A stretch of 64,000 bases of DNA. Origin: Candidatus Omnitrophota bacterium (GTDB taxonomy: Bacteria > Omnitrophota > Gorgyraeia > Zapsychrales > Zapsychraceae). The position numbers were made by a program, and so were the translations under genes. Where the stretch lies: positions 52,166 to 116,165 of the forward strand of contig JAGQKV010000022.1 of assembly GCA_020429915.1 (NCBI GenBank). The letters run 5' to 3'. This document shows, one piece after another, positions 16,162-56,169 of the stretch. Numbering within the stretch: position 1 is the first letter of the stretch; every line of letters begins with the position of its first letter. Below the pieces are notes generated by a model. It was not told where the DNA came from, ran no database searches, and worked only from the letters and a program-made list of their open reading frames with translations.

Positions 16162-19100
16162 ATGTTCCAGAAATCACGCCAGGGAAACTCAGTCATCCGC
16201 AGGTTTACGTCTGCACTCACCGTCGTTTTTTTCATCACCACATCCATTTTGCCGCCCAGTGTGGCCGCTCAGTCGCTACCGGAGCTTTTGAATATGCCGG
16301 CGCCCGGGGTCATGGTCAAACCGACCGTCGGGTACACGCCCGCGCTGATCAAAGGGATCGCGGTCAATCCGGACGATCCGCTTAATTTCACATTTTATGT
16401 CAGCCCGGGAGACGAACAGCTGAACCCGGCCGAGCTGCGCGAGACCTCGGACAAGCTGATCAAGTACTTTTTGGCAACCCTGACCACTCCGTCGGAAGAT
16501 CTGTGGGTCAACTTATCCCCCCATGAGAAAGACCGCATTATTTCCGACAAATTCGGTATGACCGAAATGGGCCGCGACCTGTTGGCCCAGGACTACATTT
16601 TGAAGCAGATGACGGCTTCCCTGATGTACCCCGAGGACGAACTCGGACGTGATTTTTGGCAAAAGGTTCACTCCATGGCGGCGGAGAAGTACGGGACCGC
16701 CGAAATCCCCACCAATACATTTAACAAGGTCTGGATCGTTCCGGAAAGTGCCGCCGTTTATGAAAACGCCAGCGGCGCATTTGTCGTGAGCAGCCGGTTG
16801 AAAGTCCTGTTAGCGCAAGATTACCTGGCTATGCAAAAGGCGGCCGGCCGCGAAGAATTCGCCCGCGCGCAATTAGGCGACATAGACGTCACCGAACAAA
16901 GCGGAGCGGTATCCGATATGATCCGCGAGATCCTGGTGCCTGAAATCGAAAGGGAAGTCAACACCGGCAAGACGTTTGCCAATCTCCGGCAGGTCTATAA
17001 CTCGATGATTTTGGCGTCCTGGTTCAAGAACAATCTGAAGCAAACTCTGCTCGGCCAAGTCTATGTCGACCGTGATAAAACCGCCGGCGTCGACGTGGAT
17101 GATCCCGCGGTTAAGGAAAAGATTTACCAGCAATATCTTAAGGCCTTCAAGCTGGGTGTTTATAACTATATTAAGGAAGAGTACGACCCGGTCAGCCACA
17201 AGACCGTTCCCCGTCAATACTTCTCGGGCGGGACGGGCTTTCAGCGCTTGGCGGCGCTGGTCGGCGACACCACTTATACAACGGATTCTATCCGTTTCGC
17301 TCCGCCGCAAACGTTGGCCGGCGCTCAGGCCTTGGCCGAGGAAACCTCGCTGGTGGCCGTTGACGTCGACCTGTGGGAAGCGGACGGTGAAGGGGTCAAC
17401 GAGGGAATTATTGGTGATGCTGTTCAGGCCCGCGTGGCCGAAATCATCAGCCTTGACCGCGAACGCCAGCGGCGGCTGGAAGTCGGTTCGGAGGCTGTGG
17501 AGGTATTGTCCGACGCGGCGACTTTGGCCGAGTTGATCGTTAAAGTTGATAAGGTGGAGACGTTCAAGTGGGGCGGTAGTTTCGAGGACGCCGGGACCAC
17601 GATCGAGAACCGTCTGACGCTGGATCCCAAGGCCCGCACCGTCACGCTGGAACGTCACGACGAGGAGCCGATCGTCATCCAGTTAGAAAGTGATTTTGTC
17701 GGAGTGGCCACCCAGGAGGGGGTCCCCCTTCTCATTCCGGAGGCCGAGGATAATGGTCGATGGCTGCGGACCCGTGAAGATGTCCCCGGACATCCTCGCT
17801 TTGAACGGGTGCATACTATTGTGGTGGATGACAAGGATTACGACCGTATAGAAGCGGTTCTTCGTCAGCGTGGCGTCTTTCCGAATATGTCGATGGTATC
17901 CCGCAGTGGCGATGCTGAAGGGAAAATTACTATTACCGACCTGACGACCAAGGTTCGATGGCTTAGTCATGACGATGTCGACGAAGCGCAGTTGAGCGAC
18001 GAAGTTGAAGCGGTCCAAGTCACGACGGCCGAGGTTAACGATACGGTCACTTTCAATTGGGGTGGCTACAAAGGCGGTGACATCGGACAGGTCAGCCATC
18101 GCCTCATGCTGGATCCGGTGGAGAAGACCATTACGGTGGAGCGTTTTCTCAAGGAGCCGATTGTGATCCGTTTGACAGACGGATTTGTAGGAATTCAAAC
18201 ACTGCAGGGCGCCGCTCTCGAGGAAGAATCGGATGTATTCGGAAGCGGCCAATGGATCCGCCGGCATGAGTACGTTGACGGTTCCGAACGCTATGAGATC
18301 GTCCATAAAGTGTTGTTAAGCGCGCGTGACTTGGCTTCGGCCAGGGAACAAGGCTTGCGCGAGGCGATTGATATTACGGGTATCGACAGCAACAGTTCCG
18401 GCTCGTTCCGTTACAACACACCGACCACGGCCATCGCGTTTGTCGACGCTACGTCGGTAGATGGAGCCCAGCTGGGTGAAGTCGACATGGCAAAATTTGA
18501 AGTCAACTCCCGGTGGTCGGGAGATCTGGCCGAGTACACCGGTGAAGAAAAGGTCATTAACGCGCGGACGAATGAGTTGATCGCCCAGCTGACGCAAAAA
18601 TGGGCCGGCACGATCGCCGGACTATTACGCCAGCGTGAGCGGGTTCAGGATCAGGTCGACCGCGGTGAACTCAAGCACGGCTTTATGCCGGCGGATGCCG
18701 TCGTCGAAGACGCTTACGGCAACGCGCTCACAGCGCGTGAGATCCGTGAGGGAGACTGGAAGGTGGATGAGGTCCCGGAACCGTTGACCCGTCCGGGAGC
18801 GATTCTCACCGGACCGTGGAGCGATCCCAAGTGGGCCATCAATTCGTTGACCGGAGGCGCCGTGCGTGTCTTCAATGACTACGAGGATGCCGGCTGGGAC
18901 AAGGGTGTGGCCGCGATCAAGGCCAAGCAGACCCAAATGGATATCCTGAGCGGCGCGATCACCGAATATGAAGGACCGAAAAGAACTTACTTCGTTCCCG
19001 ACCGGAGCGAATGGCCGGTGCTCACTACGCGTGTGCGCGGGCTTCACTATAATTCCAAGTTCTTCGGCTACGACGGCATTACCGCACCGGCTATCGTCGA

Positions 19101-22100
19101 AGACTTGGTGCACCTCATCGTAAATAATTATCAACAGTTGCAGGAGCAGGGTTCCGGCGTGAACGTCGTCATTCCGAAATTGCAAACACCGGAAGAGTTG
19201 AAGACGGTGGCGCAGATCATCGCTGATATCGAACAGGCGCTCGGTCTGCCCGTCGGGACAGTGCGTATCATTTTGATGAATGAACGCATTGAGTTGACAC
19301 TACAATTGGAAGAAGCAATTTGGGCGGCCCGCAAGCACGTGGCCGTGACGAATGTCGGGCGCTGGGACAAAATGGCCTCGGACATTCTGGCCCGCCGTGA
19401 ACGCGGCGACGAGATCGAACCGAACCCGACGGCGGTCGGCATGGACCAGCCGCATCTGGCCGCGTATGTTCAGCGCAACGTGGATGTCAGTCTTAAACGC
19501 GGAGCCGAGCCGGAAGGCGGCATGGTGGTTCAGATGATGAGCCGCGGCGGCAGCCATCCGGAAACGGACGCGTGGGTCGTCGAGAAGATCCGTCAGGACA
19601 AGATCGGCGAACGGAACGCCAAGATGAAATTTGCCTGGGTGGCCACACCGCAGGTCGTCGGCGTCGTCAATGAAGTCTTCCAGAGCGGGGATTACTCCGA
19701 CCGGCAGGCGGACCCTTACGGGTATTCTGCCGCGGAAGAAGCGAAGCTGGTGGAACTTCCCACGGGGGCCTTAAATAAGGAAGGGGTCCGCAAGGCCGTC
19801 TATGATTCTTTGGCCTACGCGATCGGTTTCCGCACTGCGGGCGGCGCCGTGGCGATTGTCGACGAGACGCAACCGGGTCTGCGGCTGATGCAGGACTTGG
19901 CCGTTCTGAAAATTAACTACTACTGGTTATGGAAGCTTGTCCATCACCGCGCCGTCCTGGACGATTTATCCGAGGGCGTCACACCGGAATATGTTACGCG
20001 TGTGATCGATGAGCAGGTGGAGTATATCAAGTCCATGTCCCGGGAAACGCCGCCGCGCGCGGACACCTTTCCGGATGAAGACTGGGACGCCGTTGCCACA
20101 ACCCTGAAGGCACTGGTTACCGCCGACAAGATGGTGACTTGGGAATCGGTGGTTATGAACAACATCATCGATGAAGACGATCCGGAAATGATTCAGGCCC
20201 GGCTGCGCGGGATCTTTACGCCGCGTGAAGAGCTGGTTGCCGAGTTGAACACGGCCATCGCGCAAAAGCAGGAACGCCGCACCATCCGTGCCGCGCTGGC
20301 CGCCCATGATGAAGTTCATTACAGCCCGCCGACGGTGGCATTGACACACAGCCAACAGGCCGTTCTGAGCGAAACCGCCAAGCGTATGGTCCCGCCGACC
20401 GGAGGGATTCTCGCTGCCGACGAAAGCATCGGGTCCGCCAAAAAGCGTTTGGACATGGTCGGACTGGATAATACCTATGAATACCGGCAATTGATGCGCC
20501 GGCTGATGTTGACGGCGCCGGGTCTGAAAGAGTCCGGCATCGATTCGGTCATCCTCTTCGCCGAAACATTCGACAATGAAGATGAGGCCGGCAACAACCT
20601 GGTGCAAACCTATCTGGTCGACCGCGACATTGCTCCGGGGATCAAGACCGACAAGGGACTGGAAGATGATCCGGAAAGTCCGGGCGAACAAGTTCCCAAT
20701 CCGAAGGGCCTGGCCGAACTTCCCGGTATGCTTGCGGAATTCCGTGACAAGGGCGCCGTCTTCACCAAGTGGCGGACGGTCCAGCATATCAATCCCGACA
20801 CCGGATTGCCGACGGACGCCAACATTCTGAAGAACGCCGTTGTTCAGGCGCGCGCGGCCAAGCTGACGCAAGAAGCCGGTTTGGTCCCGATTGTTGAGCC
20901 GGAAGTGATGTATGAAAAGTCCGCGCACAGCCTGGCGGACAGCTACGGCGCAACGGTCCGTACCTTACAATTGACCTTCGACGAACTCGTCCGCCAGGGC
21001 GTATTCCTCGGCGGTATGATCCTTAAATCCAGTATGATCCTGGCCGGTCAGCGGGCCGACGAACAGACCGATGCCGACACCGTCGGTATGGAAACGCTCA
21101 AGGCGTTGCTTAAGTCCGTTCCGGCCGCGGTCCCGGCGATTGTGTTCCTGTCGGGCGGACAGAACGATGATCAGGTCATTGCCAACCTGGACGCGGTTAT
21201 CCGCGCCAGCCAGAATCAATTTGTGGCGGCTCGAGACGCGGTCGTTGCTGAATTGGAGGCGGAAGGCAATCAGGCCCGGGCCGATGAGGTAAGATCGTGG
21301 ACACAAACCCCCTGGGAAATATCCTATTCGTTCGGACGCGGACTGCAGCGGCCGGCTTTGCTCACATGGGGCGGCGCGGCCGAAGGCTTTGAGCCCGGAC
21401 AGCGCGTCATGGCCGAGACGGCATTAACGGTCAAGACCGCGCGCCAAGGTAAGTTGGGTACGGATGAGGCCCTGCTCGCGCAGGTCACCTCGGCCGATTT
21501 TCGGCATCCCGACTTTACACCGGCGGACAAAGAACTGATCTTTGACGCCTTGGTCACCCGCGGGCTCGTTGATGTGGACGGGCAGCTTCTCGTACCGACA
21601 TTGATGGACCAACGTGAGGAAGACCGGGTGGTCGCCCGTTACCTGGGGCTGCCGGATTCTGTCACGCCGTACGCTAAATATGTGCTGGCGGTGTTAACCA
21701 AGACGCAATTGGTCGCGATTCCGTTCTTGCAGCGGACGCGTCCGCTGGCGCAGCTTGTCCGGGATACCGAACCCGAAGCGCTGTTAGTCGAAGCCGCCAA
21801 GATCCGGGCGGAGTTGGCCGTCGAGGTCGCCTCAGGATTGAAGTGGGACCAAAGTATGTCGCAACGCGACGAAGATTATTATCGTACCGAGGAAAAACGC
21901 AAATCACCGACGGAATGGCAGGCGGACTTGTCAGTCATCGACACCGAGCTGGCCCGCCGTGCGGACATGGCGCTCAACGCCGAAGAGACCATCAACCGGT
22001 TGATCAATGACATCGATTGGCTCCGCGTCAAACTCGGTAAACTGATTGAAGCCGGCGTCTATTTCGATCCGGAATGGGGAAGTCAAGGCTCTTTAAGGGA

Positions 22101-25100
22101 AGACCTGAGCGTCAAGGAGCGCCTGCTGGAACTGGCACGCGCCGATTACGCCGTGTTCGGTGATGACGCCCGCCGCGGTATGGGGCCGGAGCACATCGCC
22201 GGTATTCTTCCGTCTGTTATGGCCGGCATGGAAAATACCCAGTTGCGCCGCCGGAAAATCACCCTGCGGGACACCATCAAGGTTGCCCTCGACGAAGCCG
22301 TTGAAGCTCTGGCAGTCCTTGATGAGGCCCAGCGCAAGGCGCTGCAGGCTAAAGTTTTTGACTGGCTGAAGCTGATGGTCGGCATCAGTGATATTGAACG
22401 GCCGGCCTTGGTCGGGGAGATCAATGCCGCTGTCGGCTCTGATGTTGCCGGACCGGCCTTGATGAACCTGGCCCGTGTCATCGACGACGATACCAACCGG
22501 ATGAAGGATGAAAACCGCGGCTGGGTCATCACCCTGATGGCCGGACGTGTTTACAACGGTTATCCGTACAATGTCTCCAAAGACGGCGCTATGTTGGCCC
22601 GGGACGAACTCCGTGAGCGGAGCAAAGGCATTCAGGAATGGATGGACTCGGACCGCTTCCGTCTCGTGCGCGACCGCAACTGGTCCGGCGAGGAGATCGC
22701 CAAGTCCCGTTCGCAATCCGAACCGCTCCCGCAAGTCGATAACCGCATGCCGCGCGCATTGATTCAACTGATGCGCCGCAATCAGGCCGAAGGCACCTAT
22801 ACGGCCACCGGCGGTGTTATGGACGGTCCGTCGGCAGGCGCGCTGGCCGAGGCCGGCATGCCGGCCCTGTACTTCAGCGGCTGGCAAGGCTCGCATCATG
22901 GGGCCGAACCGGATCTGGCCAAGTACGATTACAATGAAGTGCCGCGGGTGATGGAACGCATTAACAAATACCTGCGTAACAAAGACGCGGACAAGTGGCA
23001 GCGTTTCGACGCCATCCGGGATGAGCTGGAGCTGGTCTTTGACGATCTGTTTACAGCCCTGCGCACCGACGGGGAAGTGGATGTCGCGGCATATACCAAG
23101 TGGTTCGTGGATACGGTCCTGAAGGAAGAGCCGACCACGGAGATATTCATCAATCAGTTCCGGGAAGATCCGCAGACACTGTTGGGTGACATCTTCGGCG
23201 CCGCGGTCCGCGAAGCGGTCGCGCAAAAAGATGCTACCTCCGCGGAGACACGCAACGCGATCCGCGATTCGGCTTATGCCGCCCTGGCGGACTACCTTAT
23301 CGAATACCTGATTCCATTCTACGCCGACGGGGATACCGGCCACCAATCCGTTAAGGAAATGGTACGCTCTTTTGTCCGCGCCGGAGCAGGCGGGATTCAC
23401 ATCGAAGATCAGGCGCACGGTTGCAAGAAGTGCGGGCATATGGCGGGTAAAGTACTGGTTTCCACGGCGGAGCAACACCGACGCCTGTTGGAGGCCCGTA
23501 AAGAAGCGGACCTGCTTGGATCGGAATTGTTGATCATCGCCCGGACGGATGCCGAGGCCGCCAAATTGCTGCAAAGCCTTGAGGATCCCTCGGATCATTA
23601 CATGGTGAAAGGCGTCACCCGGCGGAACATGCCGTCGCTCGCGTCGCTCATCCGTCTGGTCCGCCGCGAACTGCGCATTGTCAGCGGCACTCCGGAGGAA
23701 GCGGTGGAATCTATCCGCAAGGATTTCCCGACGTTGGCTGAAGGCGTGGAGAGGATATGGAGTCTCCGCGGAGAAGTCGCGGGACGCAGTCTGATCGGCG
23801 AAAACTGGGAAGTCGCCGGCACCGGCCAGGACGTGGGCAGTTCGCAGGACATCTGGGACTCACGTGAGGCCATTGAGTATGGGGAAGGCGTTCTCACCCC
23901 CGACACCGTGGTCCGCAGTCTCGACGGTGACCTGGAGATGACCGTCCAGGAACTGCTGGACCGTAAACCGGCCCGGTTGAAGGAAGAGATGGCCGCCGTA
24001 TCCTCTTTGACGTCAGAGTGGGGACGGCTCGCTGAGATGAAGACCTTTACTCAACTGGTAGAGGATACGCTGACCAAAGAGAACAAAACGCATCTCATTC
24101 AGGTGTGGCGCGACTGGGTGAATCCGTTGGAGCACACCCGCAGTATTCCTCAGATGCAGGAAAAAGCGGATGAACTCGTCGGACATGAAGTTTTCTTTGA
24201 TGAAGAAGGCGCACGGACCTTTGAAGGACACTTCCAGATCGAGGCCAAGGCCAAAGACACGGTAACCGGTGTTCAATACGGTGTCCTCAACGCCGCCAAG
24301 CGCTCGATCAAAATGGCCGGTATCGCCGACGTGATCTGGATGGAACAAGGGACCCCGAACGTCAAGCAGGCCGAGACGTTCGTCAACCTCGTCCGGTCTG
24401 ATCCGCGCGGCGAAGACATCCTGTTTGCCATCAACCTGTCGCCGTCGTTCAACTGGAGCAATCCGTCGGCTTGGGCGGACCAGTTAACGCAGGCTGAGAT
24501 CGATCATGTCAACGATGCCATGGCCCGTACCGAATTCAACTGGGGTGATCCGAACACATGGGGAGCCAATGCCGATCAATTAAAGGCGGTCGAGAAGATG
24601 TTTGCCGCACAATCGGCGTTCAGTGACGAAATCGGAAAGCTGGGATTCGTCTTCCAGTTTGTGACGATCTTCCAGGACCACGTCAGCACGCACGCGATGT
24701 GGAACAAGGCCAAGAAGCTGCATGAACTCGGCGCAGGCGGGTTTGTTCACTACGTGCAACAAAAAGAGCAACGTGACAAATCCCGTTTCGTCAAGCACCA
24801 GACCGCGGCCGGGACTAAGCGCGTGGGACGTGAAGATGATCCGTGGACACGCGGGTTCTCAACGACCGGCGCGACCGGAAAAGAATCCACGGAAAATCAG
24901 TTCGGCCGGCAGAAAAAAGACAATGCCTTGGTGGCCATCGAAAAGCCGGAGACCACCGGGGGTATCGATCTGAACCCGGAAATCATGAATCTTCAGATTA
25001 TGCGCGATGGAAACGGCGTGGCCCTGCCGCTGCCGCAACAACCGGTGGAGACGCTGCAGAATATCGAAGGGTTTATTCCGGTCATCATGCAGATGACGCC

Positions 25101-25242
25101 GATTACCAATATGCCGTTGATTCTTGGCCTTGGAATCGACTTCAATCCGACCGAATTCGGCTATGACGCCAAGAATTCAGACGACGAACCGCGGGCCCGC
25201 CGGGAGAATGCGGAGGCCGATCGGTTGAGCTACCTTAAGTAA
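16162..25242 (+). CDS. GP1: giant exported protein with malate synthase, class I FBP aldolase and isocitrate lyase domains
   Basis: A 3026-residue protein. In order: a signal peptide (to about residue 37, VAAQ); the shared N-terminal module (to about 360); two copies of an unrecognised repeat (about 455-615 and 617-750, each with F-x-WGG and EPIVI). Next comes a malate synthase A-like domain (about 790-1360; TRVRGLHY, NERIE, GRWD). A class I fructose-bisphosphate aldolase follows (about 1395-1765; GILAADES, TKWR, Schiff-base lysine K1622 in ILKSSM). After a linker there is isocitrate lyase (about 2120-2890; SGWQGS, DGDTGH, KKCGH at 2422-2426 with catalytic C2424). The shared C-terminal module with GGID starts near 2928. 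In the malate synthase the DGTWVAHP-type catalytic segment reads MKFAWVATP, so the catalytic aspartate seems lost. ATG 16162 follows GGGGGGA. Domain calls are by motif recognition; export is inferred from the signal peptide. Confidence 0.85.
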   Translation: MFQKSRQGNSVIRRFTSALTVVFFITTSILPPSVAAQSLPELLNMPAPGVMVKPTVGYTPALIKGIAVNPDDPLNFTFYVSPGDEQLNPAELRETSDKLIKYFLATLTTPSEDLWVNLSPHEKDRIISDKFGMTEMGRDLLAQDYILKQMTASLMYPEDELGRDFWQKVHSMAAEKYGTAEIPTNTFNKVWIVPESAAVYENASGAFVVSSRLKVLLAQDYLAMQKAAGREEFARAQLGDIDVTEQSGAVSDMIREILVPEIEREVNTGKTFANLRQVYNSMILASWFKNNLKQTLLGQVYVDRDKTAGVDVDDPAVKEKIYQQYLKAFKLGVYNYIKEEYDPVSHKTVPRQYFSGGTGFQRLAALVGDTTYTTDSIRFAPPQTLAGAQALAEETSLVAVDVDLWEADGEGVNEGIIGDAVQARVAEIISLDRERQRRLEVGSEAVEVLSDAATLAELIVKVDKVETFKWGGSFEDAGTTIENRLTLDPKARTVTLERHDEEPIVIQLESDFVGVATQEGVPLLIPEAEDNGRWLRTREDVPGHPRFERVHTIVVDDKDYDRIEAVLRQRGVFPNMSMVSRSGDAEGKITITDLTTKVRWLSHDDVDEAQLSDEVEAVQVTTAEVNDTVTFNWGGYKGGDIGQVSHRLMLDPVEKTITVERFLKEPIVIRLTDGFVGIQTLQGAALEEESDVFGSGQWIRRHEYVDGSERYEIVHKVLLSARDLASAREQGLREAIDITGIDSNSSGSFRYNTPTTAIAFVDATSVDGAQLGEVDMAKFEVNSRWSGDLAEYTGEEKVINARTNELIAQLTQKWAGTIAGLLRQRERVQDQVDRGELKHGFMPADAVVEDAYGNALTAREIREGDWKVDEVPEPLTRPGAILTGPWSDPKWAINSLTGGAVRVFNDYEDAGWDKGVAAIKAKQTQMDILSGAITEYEGPKRTYFVPDRSEWPVLTTRVRGLHYNSKFFGYDGITAPAIVEDLVHLIVNNYQQLQEQGSGVNVVIPKLQTPEELKTVAQIIADIEQALGLPVGTVRIILMNERIELTLQLEEAIWAARKHVAVTNVGRWDKMASDILARRERGDEIEPNPTAVGMDQPHLAAYVQRNVDVSLKRGAEPEGGMVVQMMSRGGSHPETDAWVVEKIRQDKIGERNAKMKFAWVATPQVVGVVNEVFQSGDYSDRQADPYGYSAAEEAKLVELPTGALNKEGVRKAVYDSLAYAIGFRTAGGAVAIVDETQPGLRLMQDLAVLKINYYWLWKLVHHRAVLDDLSEGVTPEYVTRVIDEQVEYIKSMSRETPPRADTFPDEDWDAVATTLKALVTADKMVTWESVVMNNIIDEDDPEMIQARLRGIFTPREELVAELNTAIAQKQERRTIRAALAAHDEVHYSPPTVALTHSQQAVLSETAKRMVPPTGGILAADESIGSAKKRLDMVGLDNTYEYRQLMRRLMLTAPGLKESGIDSVILFAETFDNEDEAGNNLVQTYLVDRDIAPGIKTDKGLEDDPESPGEQVPNPKGLAELPGMLAEFRDKGAVFTKWRTVQHINPDTGLPTDANILKNAVVQARAAKLTQEAGLVPIVEPEVMYEKSAHSLADSYGATVRTLQLTFDELVRQGVFLGGMILKSSMILAGQRADEQTDADTVGMETLKALLKSVPAAVPAIVFLSGGQNDDQVIANLDAVIRASQNQFVAARDAVVAELEAEGNQARADEVRSWTQTPWEISYSFGRGLQRPALLTWGGAAEGFEPGQRVMAETALTVKTARQGKLGTDEALLAQVTSADFRHPDFTPADKELIFDALVTRGLVDVDGQLLVPTLMDQREEDRVVARYLGLPDSVTPYAKYVLAVLTKTQLVAIPFLQRTRPLAQLVRDTEPEALLVEAAKIRAELAVEVASGLKWDQSMSQRDEDYYRTEEKRKSPTEWQADLSVIDTELARRADMALNAEETINRLINDIDWLRVKLGKLIEAGVYFDPEWGSQGSLREDLSVKERLLELARADYAVFGDDARRGMGPEHIAGILPSVMAGMENTQLRRRKITLRDTIKVALDEAVEALAVLDEAQRKALQAKVFDWLKLMVGISDIERPALVGEINAAVGSDVAGPALMNLARVIDDDTNRMKDENRGWVITLMAGRVYNGYPYNVSKDGAMLARDELRERSKGIQEWMDSDRFRLVRDRNWSGEEIAKSRSQSEPLPQVDNRMPRALIQLMRRNQAEGTYTATGGVMDGPSAGALAEAGMPALYFSGWQGSHHGAEPDLAKYDYNEVPRVMERINKYLRNKDADKWQRFDAIRDELELVFDDLFTALRTDGEVDVAAYTKWFVDTVLKEEPTTEIFINQFREDPQTLLGDIFGAAVREAVAQKDATSAETRNAIRDSAYAALADYLIEYLIPFYADGDTGHQSVKEMVRSFVRAGAGGIHIEDQAHGCKKCGHMAGKVLVSTAEQHRRLLEARKEADLLGSELLIIARTDAEAAKLLQSLEDPSDHYMVKGVTRRNMPSLASLIRLVRRELRIVSGTPEEAVESIRKDFPTLAEGVERIWSLRGEVAGRSLIGENWEVAGTGQDVGSSQDIWDSREAIEYGEGVLTPDTVVRSLDGDLEMTVQELLDRKPARLKEEMAAVSSLTSEWGRLAEMKTFTQLVEDTLTKENKTHLIQVWRDWVNPLEHTRSIPQMQEKADELVGHEVFFDEEGARTFEGHFQIEAKAKDTVTGVQYGVLNAAKRSIKMAGIADVIWMEQGTPNVKQAETFVNLVRSDPRGEDILFAINLSPSFNWSNPSAWADQLTQAEIDHVNDAMARTEFNWGDPNTWGANADQLKAVEKMFAAQSAFSDEIGKLGFVFQFVTIFQDHVSTHAMWNKAKKLHELGAGGFVHYVQQKEQRDKSRFVKHQTAAGTKRVGREDDPWTRGFSTTGATGKESTENQFGRQKKDNALVAIEKPETTGGIDLNPEIMNLQIMRDGNGVALPLPQQPVETLQNIEGFIPVIMQMTPITNMPLILGLGIDFNPTEFGYDAKNSDDEPRARRENAEADRLSYLK

Positions 25243-25522: not shown

Positions 25523-28500
25523 ATGAAAGACTTCGGGATTAACAAAACACCATTTTGCACACGCGGCATATCCGCCCTGGCGATCCTGGCCTTTATGGCC
25601 ACCACGATCTTACCGCCGGACGTTGCCGCGCTCACCGTTTCCAAATCACTCGAACTACCACCTGTCGGGAGCATGATTACGACAACCAAAGATTATCACC
25701 CGGCCGTGGTCCAGGGGATGAGTATCGATCCGGAGAATCCGTTGAACTTCACGTTCTATGTCAGCCCCGGTGACAGTCAGCTTGACGAAGCCGCCTTGCG
25801 CGAAACATCCGATAAACTCATTAAGTATTTTTTGGCGGCGTTAACCACCCCGTCGAACGACCTGTGGGTCAACCTTTCTCCCCATGAAAAGGACCAGATC
25901 ATCACAGACAAGTTTGGCGCGACTGAAATGGGCCGCGACCTGCTGGCGCAGGACTACATCCTCAAGCAGTTGACCGCCTCGCTCATGTATCCCGAAGATG
26001 AGCTCGGCCAAGAGTTCTGGAAGAGGGTGCACGCCAAGGCTGCCGAGAAATTCGGCACCACGCAAATCCCTATGAATGCGTATCACAAGATCTGGATCGT
26101 GCCCGACCGCGCCGCCGTTTACGAAAATGCCAGCGGAGCCTTTGTTGTGAACAGCCGTTTGAAAGTTATGCTGGCAGAAGACTACGTGGCCATGCAACAG
26201 GCGGCCGGCCGCGGCAACTATGCCGGGGCCCGGATCGACAGCGGCGAGCACAACGCTGTCGTCTCCCAAATCATCCGCGAGGTCCTTGTTCCCGAAATCG
26301 AAAAGGAAGTCAATGAAGGACGGACCTTCGCCAACCTGCGCCAGGTGTACAACTCCATGATCCTGGCATCCTGGTTCAAGAACACTCTGAAGGAATCGCT
26401 GCTCGGTCAGGTTTATGTCGACCGGGAAAAGGTCTCCGGCGTGGACGTGGATGATCCACAGATTAAGGAAAAGATTTACGAGCAATACCTGCACGCCTTC
26501 AAGAAGGGGGTGTACAACTATATCAAGGAAGAATATGATCCGGTGACCCAGGAAGTGCTGCCCCGGCAATACTTTTCCGGTGGGGCCGGATTCCAGGGGA
26601 TCGACCGCGCCGTGTTGGCTGAAACATATTCGCCGGCCACATTGCGCCGCGCTCCGGCGGATATCATCGCCGCCGTGCAGGATGTCGCAGAAGACGCAGC
26701 CGTGATCGCCGTGGATGTGGCTTTGTATGAGGCCGATCCCGCGGGTAAGAACGCGGGGATCATCGCCGACGCCTTTGCCCGTGTTCAGCGGGACGCCGCG
26801 GTATTGGCGGACGCAGATTTCGAACGGCTCACCGCGTCACTGGCGCCGTTCGACAGGTCCTATATCGCCGGTTTGTACCAAAAATATGTCGCGTTGCGCC
26901 AGGCGGAAGATCAAGGTGCCGAGAAACAGGGATTGGTCATCGGCGGAAACTTCAAACCGTCCGCGCAGTTGAGCGAGCTCGAACGCAGGGAATTGCTCGG
27001 CGCCCGTGACTTTGCCGAGGATATTTTCGGCAAGCAGCGTTACATCGATGCCGCCAAGGACGTCATTTTGATCGCCAATCCGATGAACGGCGGGCTGGGT
27101 TCAAGTGTGTCCCGCCAGTCGTACTTGCAGCGCATGACCGGCCGCACTGAACTCGGAGCGAAGGGGACCGATCTGTTTTTCCGGGTCGAGGTTGACGGCT
27201 TTGACGCCGACGGCAAGAAGAGAACGGTCATCGAACAAGTCAGCGTTACCGAATTGAAATATATCCAGGCCATCCGCTACGCCAGCAACCTGGGCAATAT
27301 CGTGATCCAGGAACTGGTGAACGAAGACAGTATCGGGCCGATGAACCGCTTTCTGGATGAGACGATCTTTCTGCCGGACCGGGTCGATCAGCGTCCTGAC
27401 GCGCCGCGCCGCACTTACCGTCAGGTGATCGAAGAGACGGAAGGTATCGATTTAGCCGAGACGATGATCGAACAGGGTTCGTTGCCGGTCATCGATGTAG
27501 CCACCAACAAACTCACCGACGACTATACCGCGCCCGGCGGGCACGGGCAATTGGGTTCGATGGTCCTGCAGGAGGCGCTCACCGCCGATTTGCCGGAAGG
27601 CAAGACCGTGATCCGCGCCGTGTACAACGGCGACGGTCCCAACAACAGCGTCAGCAAGAGCATCGTCGGTTTCATGGCCGCCGAAGGCGTGCCGATTGTG
27701 ATGATTTCAACCACCAAGACCGCGCTCGACAAAAAGGGCGGTCTGATCGGTCTGGAAACTATGCCCAACGGCAGTGTCCGCGCGCAGATGCTGGAACTGG
27801 CCCAGGCCAAGGCCAACGGCCAGGAAAAAATCTTCACCGCGATGGGATTGACCGAAGGGCAGGCAGGAGCCCAGTTCTTCAACACGAACGTGGCCGCGGT
27901 CAACTACACCGCCCTGCAGCCGTTCCTGCGCGAACTGCGTGATATCATCGGGGAAGAACAATTTAATGAGATCGTGACTCCCGACTTGATCCCCAACGAA
28001 AAGACCAAGACCGGCGGCCGCAAGGTCATTCAGTTGGAGGGCGCCATGGGATCGGCCCTGCTGAACCTCAACGGTTTTGTGACCACCACCGATAACGAAG
28101 ATGTCCAGCGTTTGATGGCGAAGTACGGCTTCAAGCGCCTGCTGACCATCGTCAACGTAGACGAAGAAAACCGGACCCGTTTCTTTACGCCGATCAAATT
28201 CGCCTATGACCACGTCCTGTATTCCGAGACCGATCACTTCGGTGTCTCGGCGGCATCCGGACTGCTGGTCAACCAGGGCGGATCGCATCTGCCGGGATTC
28301 GCTACGATGGACGACTATTATAAAGATGTACAGAACAGTATCGATGCGTTCCATGGCACCAGTATGTTGGCGCTTGATGAACTGCACCTGCTTGGAAAAG
28401 TCAATATGCCCCGCGCTGTTCTGGTGGGACATGTCGCCGTGAACAACAAGTCCGGTCAGCTGGTCGATCTGAACAAATTCGTCGATGAGATCGGCAAGAC

Positions 28501-30886
28501 ACCGCAGGGACGGCTGTTGCTGGATAACGTTTATGTGGAAGTGGACGAGTCCGGAGCCTTGGCCCTGGTCCGCCCGATCAATGAAATCGATCTGCAGGCC
28601 CGTCTGTCGGGTGATTCCGCGGTGTTGGCCGAGACGGTATCGGACCCGACGATCCTTGAATGGACCACGGGACGTTTCCGTCAACCCACGGACAAAGCGC
28701 CGACACAGACCCTCGAACAGGTGCTCGGACAGATTATTAAGGAATACGACATACGCGGATACGACGGTTTCGGCGACCCGAATACCAATCCGCAGCAGTA
28801 TGATGAAGTGTTGTTGAAGTGGATCGGCCGCACGTTGGCCACGGTGGAATTTGAATCACAGGTTCACCGCGGCAAGCGGGTCAAACTGGAACCGGGCGAC
28901 ACCTTCGTTATCGCCGGTGACAACGGCCCGTCCACCCAGTGGGTGAAGGAGAATCTAATTGAAGGTTTAATGGAAGCCGGGATCAATGTCGTCGACCTCG
29001 GCGGTTCGCAGCAAGGCGAGCAGACGGTCATCTCCGGTCAGCTGTACAAGAGTATTCGCACGCTCGGCGCGCAGGGAGGACTTTACGTCACCCGCAGCCA
29101 CGTCGAGATCGGGACCAACGGGATGAAGCCGAATATCGGCGGCATCACGCTTTACGGGGACATGCTGACGGCCATCAAAGAGCAGATCCTGAAAGGCGAG
29201 TACCTGCAGGCCGAGAAACCGGGAACGCTGGATACATCCGCCGAAACACGCGCACGTTCGCGTGAAGCCTACTATACATCCCTGCGCGATGAATACCAGG
29301 GATTGCGGCAAGCCATTTCGGCGGCCGGATTGAAGGTCGCGCTGAACTTCAACGGCGGTTCGTCCGTCGATTATCGCGACATCGGTGAAGAACTTATCGG
29401 TCACCAGAACATCACGCGCATCATCCGCGCCGAAAGCGATCCGTACAACAAGAACGGCGGTTTGGCCGATCCGTCCCGCGACGACGATACGGCCCTCTCG
29501 CACCCCAAAGAAAACGTGATCGCCTATTCGAAGGCGCATCCGGATGAGATCATTATCAGTTTCGACCTCGACACCGACCGGGTCAGTATCGTCGTGGACG
29601 GCGAACTTTACCTGGGCGACCGGATGTTCTATCCGATCGTCGAGCATCTGTTGACACTGGATGAATACAGTGAAATTCACAAGACGCAACCCATCTGGGT
29701 GGATTCGCGCATGCGCAAAGAAGTCGGCCTGTTGACGAGATTCTTCGGCGGGATCGCCAAGAAGCACCCGAAGGGCCATTCCAAGGTCAAAGCAACGATG
29801 GATATGCAACTGCTCGAGTTGGCCGAATCCAAGGGATTCACCACGGTCCAGGAGTTTCTGGCCGCCAATCCGGGATATAAGGACGTGCAGGCCGAATACT
29901 CGCTGCACATGTTTAAGACCGATCAAAAGGGACAGGCCTTTGACGATGCGCTCGACTTCGGATTGTACTGGCTGCAGGTCTACACGGATCTGATCGCGGC
30001 GCACCGCGAACAGGGGAATGAGTGGGCGCAGACCGGACGGTTCGACGCCTACATCGACCACCTGGTTTCGATCGGCGCGTTTCAGATTTCCGAGCAGCTG
30101 AAAGAACAGAGAACGCCGAGCACCGACAACGCCAAGACCACGGTGATGATCGCCATGAAAGACGCGATTGTCGCCGCGCTCAGCGGCCGCGAAGACTTCG
30201 CGTATGAAGACCAGTGGCGCACCGCCGACAGCAACGCGGCGATCAAGCTGGTCAACATCGATGGTGTGTTCGATCTGACCACGCCGCAAGGCAATGTCTT
30301 CTGGGGCTGGTCCAATACATCACCGAAGGTCGCCTTCGGTGTGCAAAGCGATACGAATGCCGATACCGTGGCCCTCACCGAAGCGGTGACGGCCCTGTAC
30401 ATCCATAGCCGCAATCAGATCGACGCGACCCTGGCGGCGATCGATGATAAAGAAACCAAGGCGCTGCGCGACCTGCTCGGGGAAGAATCCTCGGCCGCGG
30501 TCGAGGCCCGCGTCCTGGCGAAGTTCCCGACGATCCAGTCGGCGGTCGCCGCTCTGACGGGGACCGATCAGGCGCAACTGGCCACACAAAAGCCGGAGAC
30601 CACCGGGGGTATCGATTTGAATCCGGAATTGCTCGATCTTAAGATCAAGCGTGACGGCAACGGCGTTCCGTTGCCGGCCGTAATGCAACCGGTCGAATCC
30701 CTGCAAAACATCAACGGCTTTATCCCCGTCATCATTCAGATGACACCGGTCAATATGCCGTTGCTGCTGGGGGTTATCGACGACCAGGCGCCGCAGCAAG
30801 TCGGTTATGACGCCGACAGTGACGACTATGAACCGCAGGCTCGGCTCGACGATTCCGTCCAACCGGCCGCGGATAACGTATCGTAA
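25523..30886 (+). CDS. GP2: exported protein with UDP-sugar pyrophosphorylase-like and phosphohexomutase domains
   Basis: A 1787-residue protein. It starts with a signal peptide (cleavage near residue 35) and the shared N-terminal module (to about 360). A UDPGP-family nucleotidyltransferase-like domain follows (about 468-1033; NGGLGSS with K in LGAKGTD, YNGDGPNN, SETDHFG). Then comes a phosphomannomutase/phosphoglucomutase domain (about 1056-1673) opening with EYDIRGYDG. Its phosphoserine loop is VTRSHVEIG (S1192), the Mg loop is DLDTDR (1348-1353), the sugar loop is E-Y-S-L-H and the phosphate loop is SNTSP. The shared C-terminal module (GGID, from about 1689) closes the protein. The mutase motifs look complete, the pyrophosphorylase more divergent. 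Together they would turn glucose-6-phosphate into UDP-glucose. GP3 follows 52 bases later with no terminator between, so the two are probably co-transcribed. Confidence 0.82.
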   Translation: MKDFGINKTPFCTRGISALAILAFMATTILPPDVAALTVSKSLELPPVGSMITTTKDYHPAVVQGMSIDPENPLNFTFYVSPGDSQLDEAALRETSDKLIKYFLAALTTPSNDLWVNLSPHEKDQIITDKFGATEMGRDLLAQDYILKQLTASLMYPEDELGQEFWKRVHAKAAEKFGTTQIPMNAYHKIWIVPDRAAVYENASGAFVVNSRLKVMLAEDYVAMQQAAGRGNYAGARIDSGEHNAVVSQIIREVLVPEIEKEVNEGRTFANLRQVYNSMILASWFKNTLKESLLGQVYVDREKVSGVDVDDPQIKEKIYEQYLHAFKKGVYNYIKEEYDPVTQEVLPRQYFSGGAGFQGIDRAVLAETYSPATLRRAPADIIAAVQDVAEDAAVIAVDVALYEADPAGKNAGIIADAFARVQRDAAVLADADFERLTASLAPFDRSYIAGLYQKYVALRQAEDQGAEKQGLVIGGNFKPSAQLSELERRELLGARDFAEDIFGKQRYIDAAKDVILIANPMNGGLGSSVSRQSYLQRMTGRTELGAKGTDLFFRVEVDGFDADGKKRTVIEQVSVTELKYIQAIRYASNLGNIVIQELVNEDSIGPMNRFLDETIFLPDRVDQRPDAPRRTYRQVIEETEGIDLAETMIEQGSLPVIDVATNKLTDDYTAPGGHGQLGSMVLQEALTADLPEGKTVIRAVYNGDGPNNSVSKSIVGFMAAEGVPIVMISTTKTALDKKGGLIGLETMPNGSVRAQMLELAQAKANGQEKIFTAMGLTEGQAGAQFFNTNVAAVNYTALQPFLRELRDIIGEEQFNEIVTPDLIPNEKTKTGGRKVIQLEGAMGSALLNLNGFVTTTDNEDVQRLMAKYGFKRLLTIVNVDEENRTRFFTPIKFAYDHVLYSETDHFGVSAASGLLVNQGGSHLPGFATMDDYYKDVQNSIDAFHGTSMLALDELHLLGKVNMPRAVLVGHVAVNNKSGQLVDLNKFVDEIGKTPQGRLLLDNVYVEVDESGALALVRPINEIDLQARLSGDSAVLAETVSDPTILEWTTGRFRQPTDKAPTQTLEQVLGQIIKEYDIRGYDGFGDPNTNPQQYDEVLLKWIGRTLATVEFESQVHRGKRVKLEPGDTFVIAGDNGPSTQWVKENLIEGLMEAGINVVDLGGSQQGEQTVISGQLYKSIRTLGAQGGLYVTRSHVEIGTNGMKPNIGGITLYGDMLTAIKEQILKGEYLQAEKPGTLDTSAETRARSREAYYTSLRDEYQGLRQAISAAGLKVALNFNGGSSVDYRDIGEELIGHQNITRIIRAESDPYNKNGGLADPSRDDDTALSHPKENVIAYSKAHPDEIIISFDLDTDRVSIVVDGELYLGDRMFYPIVEHLLTLDEYSEIHKTQPIWVDSRMRKEVGLLTRFFGGIAKKHPKGHSKVKATMDMQLLELAESKGFTTVQEFLAANPGYKDVQAEYSLHMFKTDQKGQAFDDALDFGLYWLQVYTDLIAAHREQGNEWAQTGRFDAYIDHLVSIGAFQISEQLKEQRTPSTDNAKTTVMIAMKDAIVAALSGREDFAYEDQWRTADSNAAIKLVNIDGVFDLTTPQGNVFWGWSNTSPKVAFGVQSDTNADTVALTEAVTALYIHSRNQIDATLAAIDDKETKALRDLLGEESSAAVEARVLAKFPTIQSAVAALTGTDQAQLATQKPETTGGIDLNPELLDLKIKRDGNGVPLPAVMQPVESLQNINGFIPVIIQMTPVNMPLLLGVIDDQAPQQVGYDADSDDYEPQARLDDSVQPAADNVS

Positions 30887-39040: not shown

Positions 39041-39050
39041 GGTTATAAGA

Positions 39051-52958: not shown

Positions 52959-53129
52959 ATGCTGAGACCGAAAAGCATCGATACTCTGAAGACCTATTAC
53001 TGGAAGCAGTTTAAGAACGCCATCATCTCCGGGATCATTGTCGGTATTGCGGCCCTGCTGCTGGCCTGTCTTCTGCTCCTCAAGCCGCCGTTCTGCCGCA
53101 GATCAGCCGTCGACTCGCCTTCGATGTGA
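52959..53129 (+). pseudogene. Truncated 5' copy of the SulP transporter gene
   Basis: A 56-codon frame whose first 33 or so residues (MLRPKSIDTLKTYYWKQF and GIIVGIAAL) match the start of the SulP protein at 56577-58262 (MLRPKIIDTLKTYSWSQF, GIIVGIVAL). Similarity then fades and a stop follows. The DNA match is about 80% by eye over 100 bases. The two copies flank GP5 in the same orientation. Confidence 0.75.
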
Positions 53130-53424: not shown

Positions 53425-56169
53425 ATGATGTTACGCACACAAGAATCCATTTTCCGTTCGCTACACCGGGCCGGTGTTGTCGTACTTGTTTTGTTCAGCG
53501 TTCATTTTTCCGTTCCGGCCGGCGCCCAGGCGGGCGCGGGGACGGTTCTGAATCTCCCGCGTCCCGGGGCCATGGTCCATCCCACGCCGCAGTTCCGACC
53601 CGCGATCATTCGCGGGGTGACGATCCATCCCAACAATCCACTGCTGATGGATTTTATCGTGGACCAGGGAGACTCGGCCCTCGACGGAGCAGTCATGAAA
53701 GATACGAGTGCCACGTTGGTCAAATATTTTCTGGCCGCACTGACCACACCCGAAGACCAAATGTGGGTCAATTTGTCCCCCTATGAACGGGACCGGATTG
53801 TGCCACCATTGTTCGGAGAGACCGAGATGGGACGGGACCTGTTGGCTCAGGATTATCTTCTTAAGCAACTCACTTCCTCGTTGATGTATCCGGGCACGGC
53901 ACTCGGCGGGCAATTCTGGGAGGAAGTCTTTGCCAGCGCCCGGCAGGAGTACGGCACCACCGAGATTCCGCTGGACACTTTTCACAAGGTGTGGATCGTT
54001 CCGCAACGGGCGGTGGTCTTTGAGTACGGGCAAAGCGCCTACATTGTCGAGAGTCGGTTGAAGGTGATGGTGGAGGACGATTATTTGGCTCTCATGAAGG
54101 CGACTTCCCGGTTGGCAGGTGGGCCCTCTGATGAGGCCCAGACTCAGATCCTGCGCGAGCTGATCATCCCGGCAATCGAAACAGAGGTCAATGAGGGGCA
54201 GACCTTTGCGCCGCTGCGGCAGATTTATCATTCCATGATCCTGGCCACTTGGTATAAGACCCACCTGAAAGAGAGTCTCCTCGGGCAGGCCTATGCCGAT
54301 CAGGGCTTGGTTAAGGGCATCGATATTGACGATAAGCAGGTGAACCGCAAGATTTACGCGCAGTATATCGAGGCCTTTCGCAAGGGGGTCTACAACTATA
54401 TTCAGGAGGACTATGATCCCCAGGCCCGGCGGGTGATTCCCCGCAAGTATTTCTCGGGCGGGGTGCAGATGAAGGTCGACCAAGCGGTGATGGTAGAACC
54501 GACGGAACTGGAAAAACTCAGCTTGGAACAATTCGCAACGTTTCTAAAGGCGCTGGACCCCGCGGCCCTCGATGAAGAATTGTTACAGGGTATCCGCAAC
54601 CGGATCGAGCAGATTCCGGCTGCGGACCGTTATGAATTTGCCTTTCTCTCCGAAGGGGTTACGGGTCAGGTGCAGCGGGTCGTTGTGCAGTTGATCGAGA
54701 ACATTCAGGACGAAAAACTCCTGGAGGACGGGGCGGACAATAAGCGATCCGGTCGCGCCGTGATCCTCAAGGCGGGGAATCACCGTATTCCGGTTCTGCT
54801 GGGAGTCGGTCACGCCGAACGCTTCGGGTCTTCCCTGGAGTTGATCAACCTGATTAAAAAGGTCGACGCCTATCGGCTGCAGAATGATCTACCGCCGCTG
54901 TTCGCTCCGGTCTTCGATGAATTCTTGGCGCTCCGGCAAGAGAAGGGAAAGATTGGAAAATTCAAAGGACGATTCTTGGGTTGGGTTGTCGACAATAAAC
55001 AGCAGTATCCGGAGGCGGCCCAGGTTATTCAGGATATCCTCGCTTTTCAAGCGGATGTTTTTGCCCGGGAGGTAAAGTTGATCCGTAACGGAAAGATCAG
55101 GAGTGTGGAAGGTGAGGAGCGAAAACCGATAGCCGAAAAGTGGCAGCAAGTGGATGTCATTCAGCTGGGCGGCGGGATCATCGGCAACAAAGCCTTTCGA
55201 AAGTTTCTTGGCAAGAAACTGAGGCAGAAGATCCCCGATGTCGATGTGATTTCTATCACGGCGTCGGAGGAAGCCGCGGTGATCGGGGCGACATTGCTGT
55301 TGGAGGCTCAGCAGCGACGCGGGGTGAATGTGATCGGCGTGGATGTGGGCGGTCAGAGTGTCAAGATCGGTCTGGTGGTATATGACGATCAGGGTGTGGC
55401 GCAGGGCGTCGAATTGATGCGACAGATAGTTCCCGATATGAAGGCGGGCGTCGACGGCTATTATGGTGAGATTAGGGCCGAAATTCAAAAGATCAAGGCC
55501 GAAGCACAGGCACAAGGATATACCGTCTCCGACCATATCGCATTAAGCCATCCCGGGAAAAAAGGGGAAGACGGCACCATCGCCAAGGGAAGCGATCCGA
55601 ATCTGCGGCTCGGCGCCGATGAAATTCCCTTTGACGGTAAAAATCCGTTGAACTGGATCTTGACGGACGGAGAGTCCGGGACATGGGGGAACGATGCCCT
55701 GGCCCAGGCACTGGGCGGATACTATATCCAGAACTGGTGGCCCGGAGATCCGATTAAGGATAAAACGATTTTTTATTTAGGGCTCGGGACGGGATTGGGG
55801 GTCGCGTTCTTACGAACGGACGCTCAAGGGGCCGTGATTGACATGTCGGATGATCACTTTCAGAAGGATCCAGTCATCGGAAAGAAGATCGTGAAATCCA
55901 AGAAACAGCAAAAGCTTCGTAAGGCCGCGGGAGTGGATGATACGTACGGGGGGATCGACCTCAATGCGTCGATCATGGACCTGCAGATTCAAGGGGCCGG
56001 TCGCGGCGTCGCGCTACCGATCGCGGATCCTTCTTTCGACCCCGTTCATGTCGAAGGCTTTTCGCCTTACATCCTGCATATGCGGCCGGTACAACCGGTC
56101 GTCTCGGTGCTGCCGCTTCTGGGAGTGGCCGACCTTCCGGCAGAGTCGTCTGCGGACACCTCCGGATAG
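53425..56169 (+). CDS. GP5: exported protein with ROK/hexokinase-like domain in permuted order
   Basis: A 914-residue protein. It has a signal peptide (to about residue 34, AGAQAG) and the shared N-terminal module to about residue 350. A sugar-kinase (ASKHA/ROK-like) region at about 440-830 follows. Its motif order is unusual: a C-lobe-like segment with IQLGGGIIG (579-587) comes first, then the phosphate-1 loop DVGGQSVK (640-647), a GNDALAQALGG segment (755-765, as NDANAAALGE in ROK proteins), then the phosphate-2 loop LGLGTGLG (785-792). In normal ROK kinases the LGGG segment is near the end. The shared C-terminal module (GGIDLN) starts near 843. Glucokinase-type activity is possible but unproven. 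ATG 53425 or 53428 could be the start. Confidence 0.75.
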   Translation: MMLRTQESIFRSLHRAGVVVLVLFSVHFSVPAGAQAGAGTVLNLPRPGAMVHPTPQFRPAIIRGVTIHPNNPLLMDFIVDQGDSALDGAVMKDTSATLVKYFLAALTTPEDQMWVNLSPYERDRIVPPLFGETEMGRDLLAQDYLLKQLTSSLMYPGTALGGQFWEEVFASARQEYGTTEIPLDTFHKVWIVPQRAVVFEYGQSAYIVESRLKVMVEDDYLALMKATSRLAGGPSDEAQTQILRELIIPAIETEVNEGQTFAPLRQIYHSMILATWYKTHLKESLLGQAYADQGLVKGIDIDDKQVNRKIYAQYIEAFRKGVYNYIQEDYDPQARRVIPRKYFSGGVQMKVDQAVMVEPTELEKLSLEQFATFLKALDPAALDEELLQGIRNRIEQIPAADRYEFAFLSEGVTGQVQRVVVQLIENIQDEKLLEDGADNKRSGRAVILKAGNHRIPVLLGVGHAERFGSSLELINLIKKVDAYRLQNDLPPLFAPVFDEFLALRQEKGKIGKFKGRFLGWVVDNKQQYPEAAQVIQDILAFQADVFAREVKLIRNGKIRSVEGEERKPIAEKWQQVDVIQLGGGIIGNKAFRKFLGKKLRQKIPDVDVISITASEEAAVIGATLLLEAQQRRGVNVIGVDVGGQSVKIGLVVYDDQGVAQGVELMRQIVPDMKAGVDGYYGEIRAEIQKIKAEAQAQGYTVSDHIALSHPGKKGEDGTIAKGSDPNLRLGADEIPFDGKNPLNWILTDGESGTWGNDALAQALGGYYIQNWWPGDPIKDKTIFYLGLGTGLGVAFLRTDAQGAVIDMSDDHFQKDPVIGKKIVKSKKQQKLRKAAGVDDTYGGIDLNASIMDLQIQGAGRGVALPIADPSFDPVHVEGFSPYILHMRPVQPVVSVLPLLGVADLPAESSADTSG

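Follow-up and report, generated by a model that had tools for sequence, protein, structure and literature searches.

Isolated examples of core metabolism beyond the cytoplasm are known, among them the glycogen enzymes of Chlamydia. According to the available text of PMC4829429 and PMC9251005, Chlamydia secretes these enzymes (GlgA and others) by type III secretion, together with the phosphoglucomutase CT295, which gained a secretion signal. Within the Omnitrophota, giant open reading frames (ORFs, >20 kb) with few annotated domains are regarded in the available parts of PMC10066038 and PMC12057145 as possible coats or adhesins, their role being poorly understood. Here we analyzed a 64,000-nt stretch of DNA (the window) from Candidatus Omnitrophota bacterium (assembly GCA_020429915.1, contig JAGQKV010000022.1, positions 52,166 to 116,165 of the forward strand). 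It encodes five predicted proteins, GP1 to GP5, that bracket differing centres between a fixed N-terminal module (N-module) with a signal peptide and a fixed C-terminal module (C-module). We propose, with a probability of about 0.6, that they belong to an Omnitrophota export carrier that moves divergent intracellular-type enzymes and regulators (the cargo) out of the cytoplasm to act there.

As in Chlamydia, a bacterium of the Planctomycetes–Verrucomicrobia–Chlamydiae (PVC) group, housekeeping carbohydrate enzymes with an export signal would here be used outside the cytoplasm, and the secreted chlamydial enzymes are the closest functional precedent; there, however, a type III signal sits on single enzymes, and the available text mentions neither brackets nor strings of domains nor a purge of cysteine. 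Cargo of the type IX secretion system (T9SS) likewise combines a Sec signal peptide with a conserved C-terminal module on diverse proteins, but the bracketed family also has a large conserved N-module. No NCBIfam model of a type IX C-terminal domain matched GP1–GP5 at E 0.01, and a search for the T9SS protein SprA matched none of 30 genomes, with control genomes equally silent. Polymorphic toxins, whose variable part is the C-terminal tip, share with the family a constant trafficking part, a fast-swapping variable part and many copies per genome; in the bracketed proteins, in contrast, the variable part is central, both ends are constant, and the cargo consists mostly of enzyme and regulator domains. 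The Pfam families listed for the centres contained no recognised toxin domain, although no dedicated scan for toxins or immunity genes was made. Cellulosomes also comprise many exported enzymes with a common tag and linkers, but the bracketed cargo is mostly of intracellular type rather than polysaccharide hydrolases, and neither dockerin nor cohesin was among the Pfam matches listed for the family's centres (in one list the best 25 of 28).

The available parts of PMC10066038 describe neither the bracketed family nor a cysteine purge, and the terms signal peptide and cysteine are absent from that paper. The literature searched, to the extent of its available text (bioRxiv and most subscription papers lie outside it), describes neither these modules nor the purge, in agreement with the first-pass annotation of the window, which knew of no system of this kind. 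If true, a bracketed carrier of exported enzymes would amount to a new way of organizing metabolism: a family widespread in an order, each genome encoding tens of such carriers loaded with divergent, cysteine-free enzymes of intracellular type. Beyond that annotation, our analysis adds the cysteine purge, a linker motif, cargo turnover within the genus and a nearly cysteine-free giant ORF in a relative.

The five proteins lie where they had first been placed, the only refinement concerning the start of GP3 (Table 1). Their N-modules (∼350–360 aa including the signal peptide) have 109 invariant columns, with GP2–GP5 47–68% identical to GP1, and their C-modules of ∼60 residues share the pattern GGID...GF-x-P-x-I...P. 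The family itself is real, but five was an underestimate of its size: profiles built from GP1–GP5 detected 35 N-modules and 35 C-modules in the source genome, a 33-contig draft. Each of the 35 pairs, whether from the window or from the fetched loci, occupies a single ORF, N-module first and C-module last. These open frames span 865–5139 aa and together comprise 73,594 residues (220.8 kb), 6.6% of the genome. Given N-module E-values of 5e-201 to 1e-119 and a C-module match on every N-bearing ORF (35/35; weaker, 5e-49 to 0.014), the bracket is not due to chance. For GP1–GP5, neither Pfam (above cut-off) nor NCBIfam had a family covering either module, the N-module of GP4 reaching CR4_N at E 0.059, below the Pfam cut-off. 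Searching PDB sequences with the N-module profile only gave no match, and Foldseek and VIA comparisons gave no clear match of the N-module to a solved fold.

Globally, the N-module was present in 138 of 385 Omnitrophota genomes at E 1e-5 and in 60 of the 62 listed for the source order, the two others being G107 and G207 (survey scoring up to five candidates per genome, with 227 non-matching genomes unlisted and the listing apparently sorted by kinship). A fuller search, counting split matches, yielded 85 N-modules in G114, 60 in G087, 27 in G176 and 18 in G128, alongside 53, 36, 4 and 16 C-modules, respectively (C-module profile from 76 of 96 listed sequences); in G128, at least 14 of the 16 C-bearing ORFs also carried an N-module. 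No C-module was detected in any of the five tested genomes without an N-module (G107, G207, G007, G019 and G039), nor in G102, whose N-module matches are weak. Separately, the matches listed for G102 (family f14) include distant N-module relatives that align from about position 90 on; as they have no C-module, they might represent an ancestral form with a single module. When one genome of each of 84,980 species was scanned, at least 475 relatives emerged, and 74 of the 79 retained loci were titled Omnitrophota or Omnitrophica. Relative loci from both surveys contained 64 ORFs with both modules and 63 with the N-module alone. Nearly all of the latter were clipped by a locus or contig end, and for the complete N-only ORFs of L148, L184, L185 and L188 the overlapping next ORF bears the C-module. 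Across Omnitrophota genomes the two modules co-occur; in the predicted proteins, the brackets are fixed and spread through the order.

We found that 33 of the 35 heads satisfy a simple signal-peptide rule, a positive n-region followed by an AxA-like site. Crucially, the predicted mature parts are almost devoid of cysteine, with 13 in 71,459 residues and 28 of the 35 proteins having none. Family proteins of two congeners contained 12 in 50,444 and 8 in 45,639, and the 147 family ORFs of relatives 101 in 191,891 (92 with none), compared with 1778 in 141,712 (1.25%; 8 with none) for 303 control ORFs from the same loci; the controls were picked mechanically (longest non-overlapping, ≥250 aa) from L118–L196, whereas the 147 also cover L089–L117, partly the same DNA. 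Within the window, nine ORFs of cytoplasmic type contained 1.77% cysteine, and other exported-looking proteins were likewise poor in it (for example 4/695, 1/413 and 0/205). This is in line with the tendency of obligate anaerobes to keep cysteine out of exported proteins, as stated in the available text of PMC12453122.

The position of the drop is informative. In a profile anchored on the conserved LPxPG motif (168 of 198 N-module sequences anchored, some present twice), cysteine made up 2–4% per 5-residue bin from −35 to −16, the signal-peptide core, then 0.71% and 0.24%; after the cleavage region it stayed at 0–0.12% per bin up to +44, with 9 in 57,474 residues from +45 to +400. In the encoded proteins, cysteine is thus purged from the cleavage region onward. 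Together with the heads, this strongly supports predicted Sec export and removal of the signal peptide, and upholds the first-pass idea of a modular family of cargo proteins, tagged at both ends by constant modules, that leaves the cytoplasm. Cleavage between cargo units, cargo activity and destination we infer from the same predicted proteins.

At the level of sequence, the enzymes first named for GP1–GP3 were borne out by profile and structure-database matches (Table 1), and GP4 indeed has a centre without a known family. The ROK-like kinase of GP5 shows a weak likeness, short of the curated cut-off, and the order of its ROK/BadF-like motifs appears permuted by eye. Pfam families were found in 26 of the 35 centres (57,377 residues) at E 0.01, some below curated cut-offs. 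Cargo of the source genome includes glycogen-type enzymes (branching enzyme, starch synthase of family GT5 and 4-alpha-glucanotransferase of family GH77), a protein resembling pyruvate phosphate dikinase (PPDK) and other enzymes utilising phosphoenolpyruvate (PEP), glutamate dehydrogenase (GDH), ROK, a pyridoxal phosphate (PLP) enzyme and Nudix. It further includes a weak fructose-1,6-bisphosphatase (FBPase) match, methyltransferases, an M48 peptidase, an ABC1 kinase and a GHKL ATPase, as well as regulator and repeat domains (response regulator, HTH_3, HEAT and WD40). In relatives, one protein combines fructose-bisphosphate aldolase, triosephosphate isomerase and isocitrate lyase (ICL; L120), and another, from Ca. 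Aceula lacicola (L155), two copies of glyceraldehyde-3-phosphate dehydrogenase (GAPDH) and an acyl-CoA dehydrogenase. Standalone enzymes exist as well: the source genome has a 451-aa GDH besides the divergent bracketed matches, and GAPDH, found in 53 of 57 genomes of the order, is nearly always standalone. A pure gluconeogenesis pathway was rejected as the logic of the cargo, most centres genome-wide belonging to other families or being unrecognised.

Alignments to solved structures revealed that positions which we take to be catalytic are retained in aldolase, ICL, malate synthase and PEP carboxykinase (PEPCK). The GP1 aldolase, for example, keeps Lys, Glu and Asp relative to 1a5c, the Lys presumably forming the Schiff base, and the GP1 ICL keeps its KKCGH loop relative to 7ebe; the GlgB, M48 and PPDK motifs were present in the respective cargo in a motif search. 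Among the few cysteines kept are those of KKCGH in ICL (source genome, L120 and L135) and of CGQ in the PPDK-like protein, and the sole two of mature GP1 are both within its ICL. Both GAPDH copies of L155 retain SNASCTTNA, in which Ala occupies what we take to be the position of a second Cys, the kept one being presumably catalytic; L155 has one further cysteine, and we know of no role for the remaining ones. As the purge spared a few cysteines, presumed active-site ones among them, at least part of the cargo probably works outside the cytoplasm, and we consider the cysteine pattern of the predicted proteins the best evidence for both export and retained catalysis. In two proteins, a second cysteine lies three residues upstream of the active-site one (CKKC at 23422–23433 in the GP1 ICL, where aligned 7ebe has Thr, and CGLC in the PPDK-like protein of L062), perhaps forming a protected pair.

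The centres are punctuated by a recurrent motif, D-x-A-[VML]-L-[AS], a wider pattern of which occurred 88 times as compared with 15.6 ± 3.5 in shuffled sequences. Only 2 of 82 internal motifs touched a matched domain (random expectation 16.0 ± 3.0; 0 of 5000 as low), in a test that covered the 25 of 35 centres with entered domain intervals, each taken as its best stretch and shortened by 5 at the edges, and that omitted motifs near the N and C ends. A position-specific scoring matrix (PSSM) trained on the source genome scored 159 times in relatives compared with 11 in shuffles, and 12 compared with 14 in control ORFs. Family ORFs of relatives (L118–L196) have the additional elements D-x-A-M (135 versus 12.9 in shuffles) and SSP[VIA] (58 versus 4.0). 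The latter is rare in the source genome (2) and has 26 copies in the giant ORF of G107 described below. The D, A and L positions use mixed codons, at frequencies close to the family's own usage, so the linker is a peptide feature, and an origin as a DNA repeat was rejected on the same grounds. The linkers are most likely processing (protease, polyprotein) or docking sites.

Comparison with two congeners, of which 20 of 21 (G312) and 19 of 25 (G196) N-bearing places were fetched, gave cargo matches for 17 of the 35 source centres (blastp 1e-8), a lower bound that includes some short or weak matches, and none for the other 18. Across the three genomes, N-modules are 52–74% identical to their nearest neighbour, and in several instances the closest cargo and the closest N-module belong to different proteins. 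N- and C-module distances correlate in the source genome (Mantel r = 0.39, 0/2000 permutations) and in the congeners (r = 0.61, 0/2000; r = 0.35, 5/2000). Because of this correlation and the differing affinities of cargo and N-module, the brackets tend to travel together while the centre is exchanged; among the predicted proteins, cargo is exchanged within the genus and the brackets remain constant.

G107, a member of the taxonomic family without the modules, encodes an ORF of 44,856 residues (contig C3, bases 2–134569, L241–L253; 5′ end cut by the contig) that recalls the bracketed proteins in phylum, giant size, near-zero cysteine and partly overlapping cargo. Its 20 cysteines all lie in ten close pairs (CxxC, CxC, CC or CxxxC), compared with 1.27% cysteine in the 54 other ORFs of that contig. 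A Pfam scan of 19,997 residues (∼45%) detected GDH, GHKL ATPase, methyltransferase, HEAT, glycosyltransferase and histidine phosphatase families, kinds shared with the bracketed cargo. Judging from this one giant ORF, the two may represent different packaging of related contents, which offers a testable idea for Omnitrophota giant ORFs, whose roles the available text of PMC10066038 calls poorly understood. The cysteine-bearing peptide GVCTACERD is common to this ORF and to the L083 protein, otherwise different giant proteins. Comparing cysteine frequencies on the two sides of the cleavage site could serve as a simple rule for finding exported, cysteine-purged proteins of this type in other genomes.

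In the mechanism we propose, a Sec-type signal peptide would carry each protein across the inner membrane and then be removed. The N-module and the C-module probably make up a single carrier or clasp domain in two parts, with the cargo inserted between them, as suggested by N/C co-variation and by the full-length AlphaFold model of GP4, in which the N-module is mostly confident, a block of the C-module reaches a pLDDT of 92 and the centre is poor (whole mean 58.2). Cargo units would be beaded, with the linkers between them most likely serving processing or docking, and some, purged of all but a few cysteines including active-site ones, would probably be active outside. The weakest step is the destination: cargo may act on or in a partner cell or in a shared compartment, as the glycogen enzymes of Chlamydia do, which fits rapid cargo turnover in fixed brackets and a phylum with host- or prey-associated traits. 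We put forward more tentatively, and at less than even odds, that Omnitrophota maintain, beyond the cytoplasm, a second set of enzymes free of cysteine. A dedicated split-clasp carrier would export it as strings spanning the glyoxylate shunt, gluconeogenesis, glycogen, nitrogen, methylation and signalling. The giant ORF of G107 and others like it would be the same in one piece, and the whole would drive or redirect the metabolism of a partner, of prey or of a shared compartment.

Several observations weigh against the export carrier. Its cargo looks assorted rather than pathway-like: the dedicated acetate-to-UDP-glucose cargo of the first-pass annotation proved too narrow, with nine of the 35 centres lacking any Pfam match at E 0.01 and many others being methyltransferase, kinase, HTH, HEAT or WD40 domains, and a periplasmic role is not obvious for the HTH, kinase and methyltransferase cargo. 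Individual cargo is patchy, since class I aldolase was found in 3 of 30 genomes and GAPDH in ORFs of 1347–2991 aa in 3 of 57, the bracket being seen for one of these three (L155). Nor is the cargo simply a second copy of each enzyme, because in the source genome class I aldolase and PEPCK were found solely bracketed and GAPDH solely standalone. Motif searches found neither DPLD/LDGS in the FBPase-like centre nor GG-x-KGG in bracketed GDH. Complete N-module ORFs of two relatives (L146 and L176) show no C-module. The linker PSSM, trained on the same 35 proteins at a 10% false discovery rate, placed motifs ≤60 residues after the N-module in 28 and ≤30 residues before GGI(D) in 32 of them, and in relatives they are rarer at the ends (31/94 after the N-module, 18/73 before the C-module). 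Packing of the two modules was read without coordinates from the pLDDT of two non-matched AlphaFold runs (differing in target and alignment), in which the GP1 N-module alone reached 67.8 and that within GP4 77.8 over 313 aligned residues; as the N-module alone models weaker, this hints that the C-module completes its fold. The G107 giant ORF differs in having 66 transmembrane-like segments compared with 8 in the 35 bracketed centres, an Mpv17_PMP22 match above cut-off and weak transglycosylase, transpeptidase and nSTAND matches not seen in brackets, and no D-x-A-[VML]-[LIF]-[AS] motif; it also exceeds the longest bracketed ORF of the source genome (5139 aa, ∼15.4 kb) and one of 6160 aa (∼18.5 kb) in a congener, both below 20 kb. 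Finally, no exporter beyond Sec was found, the search for secretion systems consisting of T9SS SprA alone.

This last result would also suit cargo that serves the cell itself, in the periplasm or within an internal membrane compartment: a Sec signal peptide by itself takes a protein only as far as the periplasm, and GH77, GT5 and branching enzyme could serve a periplasmic store. However, PEPCK, UDP-sugar pyrophosphorylase (UDPGP), PPDK and GDH need nucleotides or cofactors that the periplasm lacks, and cargo turns over fast within the genus, leaving about half of the centres unmatched in the congeners; we consider this reading rather unlikely. Alternatively, the enzyme folds could be inert blocks of a coat, an adhesin or a giant surface fibre, with catalysis incidental, as might follow from the coats and adhesins proposed for giant ORFs in the available text of PMC10066038. 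Many centres are indeed unrecognised or HEAT/WD40 scaffolds, and some catalytic motifs were not found. Such bulk would not be expected to keep the active-site cysteines of ICL, the PPDK-like protein and GAPDH under a near-total cysteine ban, while the presumed second GAPDH cysteine reads Ala, or the presumed catalytic positions of aldolase, malate synthase, ICL and PEPCK, and we judge it improbable. A polymorphic effector or toxin system, its trafficking ends constant and its centres swapped for conflict with hosts or competitors, seems no more probable than that: quick cargo turnover in constant brackets, the large families of G114 and G087 (split matches included), DNA-binding, methyltransferase and kinase cargo, and a GT4-conflict model overlapping the starch-synthase region of L088 would all fit, but recognised cargo is mostly enzyme, regulator and repeat domains rather than toxin domains, and the conserved part is at both ends, unlike in polymorphic toxins.

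It is much less probable that nothing is exported and that the hydrophobic head anchors a membrane-bound metabolon facing the cytoplasm, where cofactor-using enzymes belong; the heads are net positive with AxA-like sites, and cysteine exclusion that sets in at the predicted cleavage site region lacks an obvious explanation if the protein stays in the cytoplasm. Errors of assembly or gene calling (chimeric contigs, false fusions), for which the draft state of the genome and frame breaks between the N and C parts in a few relatives might speak, were rejected as having next to no chance, since the architecture recurs at 35 loci of the source genome and in other species whose genomes were assembled independently.

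Table 1. Predicted features of GP1–GP5 in the window (positions counted from its first nucleotide)
Feature	Position	Strand	Evidence or remark
GP1, 3026 aa: signal peptide, N-module, malate synthase, class I aldolase, unknown region, isocitrate lyase, C-module	16162..25242	+	
GP1 signal peptide and N-module	16162..17244	+	N-module profile E 5e-201
Linker DGAQLGE, before malate synthase	18460..18480	+	
GP1 malate synthase domain, residues 801-1324	18562..20133	+	TIGR01344 1e-63 (below cut-off); MS_TIM-barrel 2.5e-43; PDB 3cux 5e-41
Linker variant QQAVLSE, between malate synthase and aldolase	20353..20373	+	
GP1 class I fructose-bisphosphate aldolase, residues 1402-1769	20365..21468	+	Pfam 2e-78; NF033379 above cut-off; PDB match 7e-54
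Linker DEALLAQ, aldolase end	21463..21483	+	
Linker DGAMLAR, before isocitrate lyase	22582..22602	+	
GP1 isocitrate lyase, residues ∼2154-2918	22621..24915	+	Pfam 2e-79; TIGR01346 above cut-off; PDB match 2e-63
Linker DNALVAI, before GP1 C-module	24919..24939	+	
GP1 C-module (GGIDL...PVI-x-MTP)	24958..25143	+	alignment and C-module profile
GP2, 1787 aa	25523..30886	+	
GP2 signal peptide and N-module	25523..26596	+	alignment and profile
GP2 UDP-sugar pyrophosphorylase (UDPGP) domain	27455..28420	+	Pfam UDPGP 1e-15
Linker DSAVLAE, between UDPGP and phosphohexomutase	28613..28633	+	
GP2 phosphohexomutase domain	28871..29803	+	PGM_PMM_I PF02878 1e-8; NF046027 5e-10 (below cut-off)
Linker DQAQLAT, before GP2 C-module	30566..30586	+	
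GP2 C-module	30605..30790	+	alignment and profile
GP3	30939..34913	+	first ATG of frame at 30807; 30939 is an internal Met, same frame
GP3 signal peptide and N-module	30942..32024	+	alignment and profile
GP3 GTP-type PEP carboxykinase, divergent	32265..34433	+	Pfam 3e-40; PDB match 8e-28
GP3 C-module	34626..34811	+	alignment and profile
GP4, 821 aa, centre of unknown family	40363..42828	+	no Pfam/NCBIfam match of centre
GP4 signal peptide and N-module	40363..41409	+	alignment and profile
Linker DAAILAD, after GP4 N-module	41515..41535	+	
Linker DNAALSE, before GP4 C-module	42619..42639	+	
GP4 C-module	42658..42825	+	alignment; the pLDDT 92 block is ten residues (mean, full-length model)
GP5, 914 aa	53425..56169	+	
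GP5 signal peptide and N-module	53425..54474	+	alignment and profile
Linker DQAVMVE, after GP5 N-module	54478..54498	+	
GP5 ROK/BadF-like segments, weak	55144..55869	+	BadF 6e-4, below Pfam cut-off; best PDB match E 0.8
GP5 C-module	55948..56133	+	alignment and profile

Two further proteins of the window lie near these genes. Directly after GP4, a 694-aa protein with a signal-peptide-like head is encoded at 42962–45046 (+), outside the bracketed family. A small, exported-looking protein free of cysteine at 49553–50167 (−) ends in the C-terminal tail VPEPATLLLFGSGLAGAGLRLKKRTR, which we take to be PEP-CTERM-like.

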